Positions 53,642 through 59,699 of a stretch of 64,000 nucleotides of DNA are shown in pieces (position 1 is the first letter of the stretch; the number at the start of each line of letters is the position of its first letter). The position numbers and the translations under genes were made by a program. The notes under the pieces were generated by a model, which had not been told where the DNA came from, did no database searches, and worked only from the letters and a program-made list of their open reading frames with translations. This DNA comes from Halichondria panicea (Eukaryota; Porifera; Demospongiae; Suberitida; Halichondriidae), in contig NC_087377.1 in NCBI RefSeq assembly GCF_963675165.1, positions 6,527,122-6,591,121 of the forward strand. The letters run 5' to 3'.

Positions 53642-54350
53642 GTACATTAATTGAGGTGACATCAAGGTGACCGTACTTCAGAGAGCCAAAGTAGTACCTC
53701 GATAATGAAGCATTATTTTGTAAATCCACAAATTGCAATCCAAGAAAACGTGACTAGAAGCCTATAGAAACACTTGCTTACACTTCCATTTATCATTGAG
53801 CAGCTGTAGCAGCTAGTACACACAGCCCGGACAGACAGACAGACGGACACACAAACACACTATCGTATACCCCTATGCATGCGCATGTGCACTGAGGCAT
53901 AATAATGTATTACTAAGACCACGCATGCATGTCATTATGTATAAGTCAGTCAATTGAAGGAGTATAATTATACTGGCTGAGGCATGCATTGCATATCACT
54001 AATATACTGAGGAGCATGCAACCAGTGCAGAAGCCACTAGAGTCTATTTGTGCTGAGTTTGACCATCATAAAGTTGTAATAACTTTGTCATACTTTACTG
54101 AAATTCAAGGTTTCATATACCATTGGAATCCTTGTTAAAAAGCCGCGCTTCTATCTATATGCTGTAGAGCTGGTAAGCTCCAACCAGCTAAAAGTTAGCA
54201 TTTTCCATGCAGACTGAGTCCCAGGCATACTTTTCCACCACATAAAGCATAAATAAAGCCATAATTGACCACGTAACTTCCGGGGTCAAACTCAACGCAA
54301 ATATACTTTATCAAGCTAAGAAGCTAAATCTACTACACATGGTCTACAGC

Positions 54351-54586
54351 TTATAAAATGGTATTCATAACCCACAACCCGTGTGTAGATGAATGACTGA
54401 ACTACAACATATCCAAAAATTGTTCCATGAGGTGGTGGGTTTGTGGTGATTAATAGAATAACAGCAAATTGTTATAGTGGGTAATCGGTTAGAGTAATAA
54501 AACAGTAATCTTGTACAGCTAAGGTCCTAGACTTCATCACATAATTGTTCAATGGTTTAGGTATCCTGGCCATCCCTTTATGGGTG
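54351..54586. repeat. Left TIR of the transposon (outer part)
   Basis: Pairs in reverse orientation with 59231-59461. Clear identity from TGTGTAGATGAATGACTGAA (54382) to GGCCATCCCTTTATGGGT (54568-54585). Confidence 0.85.
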
Positions 54587-55126
54587 TTACAAATGTTCAC
54601 AGTGTTTATAATTCATGATTTACAGGTTTTTAGGTACACTTTTGGTTAGAGTAATATCTTCTGAAAATTTTATAGCTTAGCTTTAAACGTTTCCTGGTAA
54701 GTTTACAAATAAATGGGCTACATTTTAATACTAAGAACATCCTCTATGCTTATTCCATTGTTGAGATATCACTGAAAAACTACACATTCTACTATTTTCT
54801 ACCGTTTTGATGACATCAGCAGCTGCTAACCACAAACCGATGACATGTGGTTGATTAAAGCATCATGTTTGTGGTTTGCAGCTGCTGATGTCATCAAAAC
54901 AGTAGTAAATTATGTAGCTTTTCAGTGTTATCTCAGCAAAGGAATAAGCATATACATGTATAGGATGTTCTTGGTATTAAAATGTAGCCCATTTATCTGT
55001 AAACTTACTGCATAAATTTGAAAGCTAAGATATTAATTTTCCAAAAGTTATTACTCTAACCAAAAGTGTACCTGAAAACCAGTAAATCATGAATAATTAT
55101 TATTAACACTGTGAACATAATTATTT
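54587..55126. mobile_element. Palindromic element nested in the left TIR
   Basis: Two arms of about 250 bp (54591-54838 and 54868-55117) are inverted copies: AAATGTTCACAGTGTTTATA against TATTAACACTGTGAACAT, and GTTTTGATGACATCAGCAGC against its reverse complement near 54880. Loop about 30 bp. The right TIR lacks it: there GGGTCTTAAACGAGC is continuous, while on the left GGGTGTTA precedes and TTAAACGAGC follows, suggesting a TTA target duplication. Non-coding. Confidence 0.85.
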
Positions 55127-55370
55127 AAACGAGCATGTTGGCTTTATAAGGCGCGGTTAATGTTTAGATTCACTTCTGCCTGTTGCGGTACAAAAAGGCC
55201 TGTGCCCTGGGCAGACCTTTGACCCCAGCTCCAACATTCAAATACAGCTCTCGTTTCTTTTCCCGCTTCATAGCCCTTTCAAACGATTTAGACAGCTCTG
55301 CGCATTTTATACCAGGGTGGGGATACATGCACGTGGTTTTTTTTTAACACAAGCAAACAAAAAACACATA

Positions 55371-56344
55371 ATGGCTACTTATACAGAACAAGCGCAAGCA
55401 AGACTCAAGGTACCACAGAAGCCCATTACATAAATAAGAAAGAAGATAAAATGTACATCTATTCAGTTTCAGGTACGGTACAGCCAGCATCCTCCAGTGC
55501 ACTTTCTGGAGGAGTTCCAGAAGTTGCTTGCGCTGTTTCCCGACGTCACTCTTGACGAAATTGATTCGGCGCCATCCGAAGGTAACACTGGAAAGTAAAT
55601 ATTAGAATGATTATTTCAAATACAATTAAACTACCATCAGTGTCAAGCAGTAATACATCCAGTGCCAGTGGTGAAGCTGCTCCCCCTCCAGTGAAGAGGC
55701 CAAAGAGAGGTAATTCTAGAGGAATTAATTTCAATAATTATCACGTGATATGGATGACGATCACTTATCTTTTGCACAGGTGTTTCTCGAGTAAGGACGG
55801 TTGGGGGTGAAGCCGGTCCTTCGAGGCCTAAGAAAGGTGAATGTCACTAACCTGTACATATGAATAAAATGAGTGGTACTTTCCTTAGGTCCCGGAGGGT
55901 ATGATCACGTTGATCCTCCGGTCTTGAACGGAGAGGGTCCCTGCCCGTACTGCCACCTGTCACCGTGTGTCAGAGCCAGACCACCCAGCTGGCTGATTGG
56001 AAGCGCTGCACCTAATTTGGGGAATATGGTGAAGCGCTTCAAACTATACCGCAAGTATTGGACGCTGCTAGGTCAGTTGGGGGTATGGAATCACCCTCTA
56101 TATATGGCATATAAAGTGACCAAAACCAGTGCCCATGACAAGAGGGATGTGATGCCTGACTGTGTATTGAGAGTAAGTTTTAAATGATGCCCACTTTACA
56201 GTGCAAGTACGATCAATTGCTATATACCTTTTCCAGGAGGTGCGTGAACGATTTCCGAATCCAGATATGGAGTTCCATACACAGACTTCCAGTCTTCTAC
56301 TTCCTTTATTGTTTAATTATGTAAAATGCCATGTAAAATGCTGA
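55371..56344 (+). CDS. P2X7 C-terminal-domain-like protein carried by the transposon
   Basis: Exons 55371..55409, 55473..55581, 55641..55709, 55780..55836, 55889..56172, 56237..56344 join in frame to 221 codons plus TGA. Residues 1-50 are acidic/helical (HFLEEFQKLLALFPD), 51-92 a Ser/Pro/Lys linker with KRPKRG, a possible nuclear signal. The C-terminal part has CPYCHLSPC, an aromatic stretch (FKLYRKYWTLLGQLGVWNH), then LYMAYKVTK and MPDCVLREVRERFPNP. This order (Cys-rich start, AYR/AYK-x-T, PxC, IRxxFP) is what is known from the zinc-binding cytosolic tail of P2X7 receptors. No ion-channel part is present. It lies between the TIRs, convergent with the transposase gene. Its job in the element is unknown; DNA or protein binding is possible. 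Confidence 0.75.
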
Positions 56345-56380
56345 TTGGCTAGTCAAAATGTGCACGGATACGTACTTACT

Positions 56381-59021
56381 TTATATGTCTTCATAAAGAT
56401 CTTCGTCAAGTACATGTACACCATCGTTTACTAGGTCCTCGTTTTCATCTACTGGCTCATCTGATTGCTCAGGTTGCACGTCCTCTACAAACTCACTGCA
56501 CATATATACATGTAGCAAGATTATATGTAATAAATTATGTAGATTGCACATTATATGCAGTACCTGAGGTCAACTTTTCTCTGCTGCTCGTAATTCTCCC
56601 ATATTTCTTCGGCAAAGTTGAACGATTTTTCCTTCAGCACTCTCATGGGAGTCCTACGATCCGGTCTTTTCATGTCCTGAACCAGTCGTTCACTTGTACA
56701 CTCTCTACGTACATTCTCGTTCTGAAGTAAACAAATGAATGAATGTACAGTCACACATACATTTTATTGGCCTTGAGTCTGCTGAGCAGCACATTGTTAG
56801 ACCTAGCCAGCCACTTCAAAGGCACTTGTATGGTGTCATCTGGGAACTGCTAACAACCTGTACCCAGTCCATAATAGCAAGGTCCATTCTCATGTTGAAT
56901 GTAGCTTCCCCGAAGTGTACACGTTTTGAGATGTATGTGAGCAGCTGGTGATTGAAAGACTCCACCCAGAATGTGTCTCGACACTGTAAAAACAACATCA
57001 TAGGAATTTTAATAATAATTAGAAAAAAACCTCACTCGACAATATGATTCGGCATTCTTGTAAATAAGGGTGTCTTTTAGTGCTGACGTGAATGACTCGA
57101 TTGCAAGAGGATCCTCTAGTTTTATCTTCGTGGGCTTGTACCCTGGACGCTTACAGGGTGACGCTTCGTTACAATCTGAGTGCTCGTTCTGAGAACACGA
57201 TTATAAATGTTATTGGTGTACAGAGTACGGACAACTTGTTATCATACACACTCACCTGAAAATGTTTAACGATATTCAGAATGTTCTTTCTTAGATTGTC
57301 TGCTGACTGCTCACAGTTCTTCATACAGTAGTACAAGTGAACTTTCGTACTTTTACCTATTGACGAATATTTTTATGTTACTGAGCACTTATATAATCAA
57401 AGCTTACGCTTGTCAGATAACTCTGGAAACCACGTCTTTCCTTGAGCCTTTTTGGTCCCAATTGCTACTTTCTTCATATTCTTCGCTACATTCTTAGTGC
57501 CTGAAAATACGCGGACACAGTAATAATTGAGATTTGAGATTCTACACACTTACCATGCCATGTGTCGTACGAGTTTGTAAGGTTGAGATCATCAGTGACA
57601 AATCTCTTGACTACAGGCTGATTATCATGCGCTACTTCAACAATATTGAGACCTGAGACATAATATCCACAAAAAATAAACACAACCTCATAATGTTGAT
57701 GCCTGAACATACCTTTATCTATGACTTCCGGAAGAACTATCTTAGTACACGCTACTTCTCGAGTCTGAGCACAGATGTGTTCTTTCCTGGAAACAGTCGA
57801 ACACCCAACAATTCTTTTCGTACTAGAAAAAGATAATTTTTATATGATAAACGACAGCAGCACACTTGTAGATAATGAAAATAATTAGTTTACCTTCCCG
57901 AGAGGCAGGGAACAGTCGTGTGATAAGCATTTGCTGTTGAGTCGTGGCGAGCATCTGTTATTACCCACTATTGATAAAGTCATTACTGAAAAACAAAAAC
58001 AAAACTAGCACATAAGAATTAATTACCTCACCGTCCTGCGAGTAACCAGGTAATGCCTTCACTTCGTCAATCGCTCTCAACATGGATGCCTTGGCACAAG
58101 CGTTCACGACGTCTAAGTATCCACCTTTCTTGTACACTGTAACGTCACAGTGTTTTGTAAGAGTACAGTTATAACATACATGTACACTTACTTGACGAAA
58201 TATACCATGAACTAACTTTTCCCAAGCCAGCATGACTACTAAAGTGAAGGTACTGGCTTGGGAGAACTCCAGCACAAGTAAAACCATGGACGATCCTGCA
58301 ATAAATAGAATTCCAAGTTAATCTTGAAAACGTATGGAATTACTCACTTTTGATTGACAAGGTATCGTCCACCGAGTGTTCGCGAGCTAGCCCACCACTG
58401 TCACTTTCCACATTTTCCACACTTGAATTCAAATCGGACAACATGCCCGTTCTGAAAAACAATATTATATTGCATACATCATGTATTGGGGTCTATTGGA
58501 CCAGAAATACCTGGCGAAAATTGGTCGGCCTACGACAATAAGATTGGCACTGGTCACATGCTTGGGATAGGCCAGTGAAAAGACAGAACAAAGTCTTCAG
58601 TTCACACACGAACAACTGTTCATCACTAGCGTCAGTATTGCCAGTAAATATTCCTGAACAAGAAGTAACGTCTTTATACAAACTTATCAAAGCTATTGAC
58701 ACACACAAACCTGAATTCTCCAACATTGGGAAGACTTTGGATTTATCAGATTGTAGGTCTTCTCTCTCAGGAACAGCACCTGCCTGCTCCTGCTCCTGCT
58801 CCAACTTGTCCAACAAAACAGAAATAAGCTCTCTGCTGTCCAAGGGCAATGAGCCTCTAGCTGTAGCAGCAAGAGAACGCTTTGCCCTATCTATCCTAGC
58901 TACAAAAGCCTGCTTTAATTGCATCTTCAGTATCGAAATTCAGCTCCATTTGGTACCGAAAACCATGCCTAGCACGCTTCTTCTTGGGTAGAGAACGAGA
59001 GTTGTCACATCTTTCAGCCAT
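56381..59021 (-). CDS. DDE-type transposase-like protein
   Basis: Fourteen minus-strand exons: 59021..58711, 58653..58511, 58451..58405, 58295..58192, 58136..58027, 57967..57894, 57822..57713, 57652..57554, 57500..57408, 57356..57256, 57188..57036, 56983..56858, 56721..56564, 56495..56381. Phases agree throughout. From ATG 58924 the product is 548 residues. A longer N-terminus starts at 59021 (MAERCDNSRSLPKKKRARHG, with a nuclear-signal-like PKKKRAR) but is one base out of frame with the rest near 58925. Features in order: zinc-ribbon-like CDQCQSYC...CGKCG, helical region, VITDARHDS (likely first Asp), RFVTDDLNL (second Asp), YDTWHGTKNVAKNMKKV, DTFWVESFNHQLL (likely Glu), then MRMDLAIMDWVQNENVRRE and an acidic tail. 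The catalytic assignment is inference from the pattern. Confidence 0.78.
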
Positions 59022-59204
59022 TTTTTTGCTCTTTTTTGAACAAAGTATCTCGTGAGCCAAGGTGCTACATGCAGGCTATAAGGGGCGTATCAAAGTAAAA
59101 CCATGTGTGCATGAAGCAAGCAGTGAAGCAAAAGGAGGCCAGAGAGTTTACCGCACGCGGCCATATTTAATCATTTCCGCCTCGAGTGCCCAGGGCACGC
59201 CCCT

Positions 59205-59461
59205 TTTATAGTCAGCATGCTCGTTTAAGACCCATAAAGGGATGGTCAGGATACCTAAACCATTGAACAATTATGTGATGAAGTCTAGGACCTTAGCTGT
59301 ACAAGATTACCGTTTTATTACTCTAACCGATTCCCACTATAACAATTTGCTGTTGTTCTATTAATCACCACAAACTCACCACCTTATGTTTCCATGGAAA
59401 CATTTTTGGATATGTTGTAGTTCAGTCATTCATCTACACATGGGTATCAACACCATTTCTT
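59205..59461. repeat. Right TIR of the transposon
   Basis: Reverse complement of the left TIR: AGCATGCTCGTTTAAGACCC (inner part) through AGTTCAGTCATTCATCTACA (outer). Uninterrupted here, giving the ancestral state of the left TIR. Confidence 0.85.
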
Positions 59462-59699
59462 AGAAAAGATATTTACATTTAAGTACAACTACTCATACAT
59501 TTGTGATAATCTACTCTCTAGACTAAATGAACTGTATAATTATATCCAGGTCACGATATATGAGTTAGTGACTAGTTGGATAGACAACTCATTACTAGTG
59601 TCCACACCGAAAGTTGAATATTCATAAATGATAACAATTATTATAGATATCTACATAATTATTCATTGTTTTATCCACAGGTTATATACATGTAGTGGT

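Follow-up and report, generated by a model that had tools for sequence, protein, structure and literature searches.

Transposases of the Kolobok type bind the short inverted ends of their element, excise it and insert it at TTAA, and those of the Kol0 lineage usually carry a THAP domain. According to the sections of Kojima and Bao (2022; PMC9587614) drawn on here, the KolX proteins encoded by Kol0 elements fold like the P2X7 ballast domain, P2X7 originated when a P2X4-like gene fused with KolX, and the zebrafish gene nanor is likely a domesticated KolX. The same sections describe Kolobok ends as 5'-RR and report a zinc finger between the DxxH motif and the following E in almost all Kolobok lineages except Kolobok1. 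The ballast itself, the cytoplasmic zinc domain of P2X7 (ZCD), is defined by three motifs in the part of Rump et al. (2020; PMC7016195) used for comparison. Here we analyze a window of 64,000 bases of the sponge Halichondria panicea (contig NC_087377.1, positions 6,527,122 to 6,591,121) in which a DDE (Asp-Asp-Glu) transposase gene and a KolX-like gene lie in convergent orientation. Taken together, the evidence makes it likely that this pair belongs to a defective, TTAA-targeting Kolobok-type DDE transposon that sits in a foldback repeat, and that its KolX-like gene is probably a distant relative of the P2X7 ballast.

The element is a divergent variant of the published kind. It shares with the Kol0/KolX elements, as presented in the consulted sections of PMC9587614, duplications of TTAA, a DDE transposase accompanied by a KolX-like protein from its own gene, a candidate DxxH located between the second D and the E, and cysteine and histidine residues downstream of the DxxH. 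It differs from them in that no THAP domain is detected, the ends begin with 5'-AC rather than 5'-RR, and the second cysteine cluster is missing from the KolX-like protein, the first being one cysteine short. In the literature on KolX, on Kolobok together with P2X7 and on the P2X7 ballast together with transposons (Repbase lay outside this search) no description of the window family was found. No papers were found on "P2X purinoceptor 7-like" together with transposase.

A TTAA-bounded transposon inside a foldback repeat

The original prediction described a single transposon, from 54349 to 59462, with long inverted repeats as its own ends. Such repeats do exist near both flanks: the arms at 54377-54589 and 59226-59445 are 94-96% complementary, long, and enclose both genes. 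When the right arm was used as a query against the whole 131-Mb genome, 40 matching places were scored (the window's own included, of 520 first-look candidates), and most of the matches begin at the base equivalent to 59226. Ten of these places were retrieved (L001-L010), and all ten are empty sites, in which the sequence at about 55118 joins directly to that at about 59226. Conversely, the gene-bearing element occurs on other contigs without the arms and bounded by TTAA. Arms without genes and an element without arms refute the single-transposon explanation, which keeps next to no probability. The window thus holds two nested things, a gene-bearing transposon and, around it, an outer foldback repeat, and it illustrates how a nested repeat can mislead the delimitation of an element's ends.

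The transposon spans 55130-59224 (4,095 bases, no strand assigned) and its ends read 5'-ACGAGCATG. It is flanked by target site duplications of TTAA at 55126-55129 and 59225-59228, both located from the copies and the empty sites, and it carries imperfect terminal inverted repeats at 55130-55155 (plus strand) and 59198-59224 (minus strand). With the TTAA counted in, this pair of inverted ends (I7) is 31 bases long and 84% complementary. A search of the genome with 55130-59224 returned 89 matched pieces; twenty places were retrieved (L011-L030), and the ends were compared in fifteen (all except L024, L025, L026, L029, and L030). Eight of the fifteen, all on other contigs (L011, L012, L014, L015, L016, L019, L020, and L023), have the same start and end points, TTAA at both sides, and unrelated flanks. 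TTAA stands at one side only in L017 and at the single end examined in L013, L021, and L022; neither transposon end is present in L018, and the single genuine end of L027 and of L028 is bordered by TTCA. Because copies end at the same TTAA points, the element is taken to be 4,095 bases long, with short inverted ends that match imperfectly, replacing the longer interval first proposed.

This duplication of TTAA, in the window and in eight of fifteen copies, is that of the Kolobok superfamily. The divergent families L031/L032 and L033/L034 likewise begin TTAA-ACGAG. A strict test that required TTAA and 16-base inverted ends, and tolerated no more than three mismatches, found a pair in one of 22 loci (L034), and this test overlooked the ends of L031/L032 that copy-to-copy comparison reveals. 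One feature of the ends speaks against a Kolobok assignment: the window family, L031/L032, and L033/L034 all have 5'-AC...GT-3' where Kolobok elements have 5'-RR...YY-3'.

Like host genes, the two are spliced from many exons, which would suit a convergent pair of immobile host genes trapped between repeats. Close copies with TTAA flanks lie on several contigs, however, and some are internal-deletion derivatives with breakpoints in common. This distribution of copies refutes the idea of a host gene pair, to which we give even less credence than to the single long transposon.

The foldback repeat that received the transposon is divided into a left part at 54377-55125, the landing site, delimited by the arms, the genome copies, and the uninterrupted copies, and a right part at 59229-59520, delimited by the genome copies (no strand was assigned to either). 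Copies of the repeat resemble the window beyond 59462, the end given in the original prediction, and the likeness reaches the end of the query at 59520. In one copy (L003) the inverted arms span positions 1024-2038 and reach the end of the retrieved piece, which makes the repeat a foldback of at least about 1 kb.

The transposase gene

The transposase gene occupies 56381-59021 on the minus strand and has thirteen exons, as established by comparison with the copies L011 and L012. The final exon model was derived from L011, whose transposase is open throughout (609 residues); L012 has a 14-base duplication in the third exon, where its gene model stops. A first automatic splice model had wrong frames and no Pfam transposase match, and was superseded by the L011-based one. 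Relative to both copies, the window gene has a 4-base insertion at about 58917-58920, in exon 1, that breaks the frame, and about 80 additional bases at about 56773-56851.

The L011 protein matches the Mutator-like family PF20700 (E 2.8e-11, 43.4 bits, cut-off 26.5), and this is its sole Pfam match at E up to 10, no THAP domain being found. The residues D, D, DxxH, and E in DARHDS, VTDD, DTWH, and FWVESF, read from L011, are candidates for the catalytic site. With these putative residues, the arrangement is the one expected of a Kolobok transposase (DDE with C/DxxH between the second D and the E), and the PF20700 score is above the cut-off; the earlier identification of this gene as a DDE transposase stands. 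The stretch between DxxH and E also contains C-x3-C and H-x2-C, as read from the L011 sequence. Neither the transposase nor the KolX-like protein has a match in NCBIfam.

From family knowledge and the TTAA boundaries found here, the transposase would bind the short inverted ends, excise the element, and insert it at TTAA. The KolX-like protein, which is conserved beside transposases, may be a helper of transposition, and it could perhaps act as a small metal-binding partner of the transposase or of a nucleotide.

The KolX-like gene

The KolX-like gene lies at 55371-56344 on the plus strand, in six exons (55371-55409, 55473-55581, 55641-55709, 55780-55836, 55889-56172, and 56237-56344). Compared with L011 and L012, the last exon of the window copy has a 2-base insertion, and the frame is lost near the end; the tail of the 221-residue protein first predicted is therefore out of frame. 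The gene of L012 is open throughout (209 residues), and that of L011 has a 4-base insertion and a 25-base deletion. The C-terminus of the undamaged L012 protein reads EVRERFPNPDGVPYTDFQSSTSFIV and is nearer to the P2X7 tail than the version translated from the window. The description of two convergent, spliced genes thus holds for their exon structure and orientation, but the frames are broken by the 4-base and 2-base insertions. The window copy is defective, with neither protein intact, and it would be mobile only if other copies supply both.

Probable relation of the KolX-like protein to the P2X7 tail

The cysteine-rich stretch and the AYK, PDC, and RERFP features on which a relation to P2X7 had been proposed are all present in the second protein. 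Of the motifs of the P2X7 tail, the last alone is recognizable in the window protein. Measured against the ballast motifs given in the part of PMC7016195 considered here, this third motif is kept in outline, with PDC for PSC, D for G, and one extra residue before Y. The first cluster appears as CxCxxC in sister families and is one cysteine short in the window protein, and several sister families have an RHxxYR stretch that resembles one in P2X7. The second cluster (LCCRx3GxCITTS) is absent from the KolX-like protein, which consequently falls short of the P2X7 domain, whose seven or eight zinc-coordinating cysteines form three clusters. The channel part of P2X7 is also missing.

Several results weigh against a relation to the ballast. 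The profile search proposed as a check by the original prediction fell short, the Pfam family P2RX7_C scoring 15.3 bits with the window protein (E 0.019) and 17.4 bits with the intact L012 protein (E 0.0044), both under the curated cut-off of 23.5. Among nine aligned relatives, four matched P2RX7_C at E up to 1 (best E 0.0017, 18.7 bits). Searches of the PDB with the KolX-like protein (phmmer) and with a profile retrieved no P2X7 chain, the profile (A1) having been reduced from 128 columns to 96, without the C-terminal ones in which the signal lies. A profile comparison (hhalign) with the L040 KolX protein, described below, and two P2X7 tails gave probabilities of 47% and 35% (single-comparison E 1.9e-4 and 4e-4), but in a control of 200 column shuffles (mean score 11.9) the maximum was 28.6, as against 28.4 observed. 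Structure prediction was uninformative: a single-sequence model covering 94 core-exon residues had a mean predicted local distance difference test (pLDDT) score of 49.1, too poor for a fold search.

These results leave some room for a second gene unrelated to the P2X7 tail, that is, an accessory gene peculiar to this transposon lineage whose C-terminal motif and few cysteines are convergent. The P2RX7_C scores below threshold, the modest hhalign score, which a shuffle matched, the missing second cluster, and a third motif that is kept only approximately would all fit such an origin. On the other hand, hhalign sets the first cysteine motif and the last motif each opposite its counterpart (the RHxxYR stretch is unpaired), sister families have CxCxxC and several of them the P2X7-like RHxxYR, and the gene occupies the same convergent position beside a transposase as an unmistakable P2RX7_C gene elsewhere in the genome. 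We regard an unrelated accessory gene as unlikely. Homology of the KolX-like protein to the P2X7 tail is likely but not shown, and the window protein and the ballast domain are probably distant relatives; the proposed relation is favored by the outline of the third motif and the pairing of motifs, and not by the P2RX7_C score or the second cluster.

The clear P2RX7_C gene was found by searching the genome with the P2RX7_C model, whose two matches at E up to 1e-3 both lie on contig C7. In L040 (C7:4018000-4023500) a THAP transposase is convergent with a clear P2RX7_C protein; L041 (C7:6477000-6482500) is 98% alike and partly N. The L040 transposase has a THAP domain (E 5.3e-20), scores 27.8 bits against PF20700 (cut-off 26.5), and aligns weakly with the L011 transposase (blastp E 0.003). 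The KolX protein of L040 scores 36 bits against P2RX7_C, and its alignment in the PDB covers residues 476-594 of P2X7 (E 9.3e-4). The left end of L040 and L041 is TTAA-AGGGAGGG, starting 5'-AG, and the right end is beyond the retrieved sequence. These two loci look as a textbook Kol0 element should. They resemble the window element in the convergent transposase and P2RX7_C-type gene and in a left end at TTAA, and differ from it in the THAP domain, the P2RX7_C score, and the sequence of that end. The link to P2X7 is carried better by this canonical pair than by the window element.

That the P2X7 tail domain originated in a transposon, as the original prediction suggested, agrees with the proposal in the sections of PMC9587614 cited above and is, for the same reason, not new. 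The window adds a case from a divergent lineage that is consistent with the published view of the P2X7 ballast as a transposon accessory protein.

Association of the two genes

To follow the pair over larger distances, 30 loci with matches at E up to 1e-3 and 70% identity or less to the window KolX-like protein were tallied manually, closer copies being excluded. A convergent transposase match lies beside the KolX-like gene in 23 of them, and within about 3 kb in 22; the count is of loci and not of independent events, several of the 30 being mutually close copies. One of the 23 (L053) has a gap of about 4 kb to the transposase except for one small piece. In L050 (C12:2463111) the transposase match is on the same strand as the KolX-like gene, and in six loci (L038, L039, L045, L046, L047, and L052) no transposase match is present within about 2-2.5 kb on each side. 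By these comparisons the convergent pairing is old. Joint travel of the two genes is thus supported by most divergent loci, but not by the six without a transposase match, nor by some copies that lack most of one gene.

The copies that lack most of a gene are of two kinds. In seven derivatives (L013-L019) the KolX-like gene is retained and most of the transposase is gone; their breakpoints are shared, which points to probably one deletion event. The KolX-like gene is open to its end in two of the seven (L015 and L017). Selective retention of this gene was considered for the derivatives, and there is no clear sign of it, given probably a single event and two open genes of seven. In the other kind, on contig C1, twelve copies in the interval from 86 kb to 1.0 Mb, together with one at 13.3 Mb, have the transposase, whole or partial, and only the end of the KolX-like gene. 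L027 and L028, both on C1, have flanking DNA in common, so at least these two spread by duplication of a larger segment. The twelve clustered copies (86076-1001922) are all on one strand, within about 0.9 Mb.

Selection and stand-alone KolX-like genes

The ratio of non-synonymous to synonymous substitution rates (dN/dS) in the core exon is 0.04-0.14 in five between-family pairs (L012/L043, L012/L044, L043/L044, L031/L033, and L031/L035), all with dS above 1, which makes the ratios rough; two more pairs are saturated. For L012/L015, a pair from within one family that differs by few changes, the ratio is 0.09, and L012/L044 gives 0.12 over 169 codons. Such low ratios suggest that the KolX-like gene has been functional through most of its history. 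With an accessory gene under purifying selection and kept beside the transposase over large divergence, a role in transposition becomes testable.

A few KolX-like genes stand alone. L038 and L039 (C4:4200000-4205000 and C4:5537000-5542000) are two diverged genes, 74% alike, with no transposase match in the retrieved flanks and a dN/dS of 0.32 over 117 codons. The gene of L044 (L044:1732-3434, C6:7126199-7127949) has six exons and is open over 211 residues. The genome contains no close DNA copy of it, the best others being 70-75% alike over the gene, an intron repeat aside. Beside it are 29 matching bases of a transposase end and nothing further that matches the element, and no terminal repeats or TTAA-flanked ends were found in L044 by the strict test. 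L044 could be a KolX kept by the host or a lucky relic. A bolder and rather doubtful possibility is that the KolX-like line represents a second version of the ballast, reduced and able to work with the second zinc cluster missing, and that the host has kept at least L044 as an independent gene, another KolX capture in addition to those proposed for P2X7 and nanor. An intron of the L044 gene contains a common repeat of about 395 bases (query positions 1035-1428).

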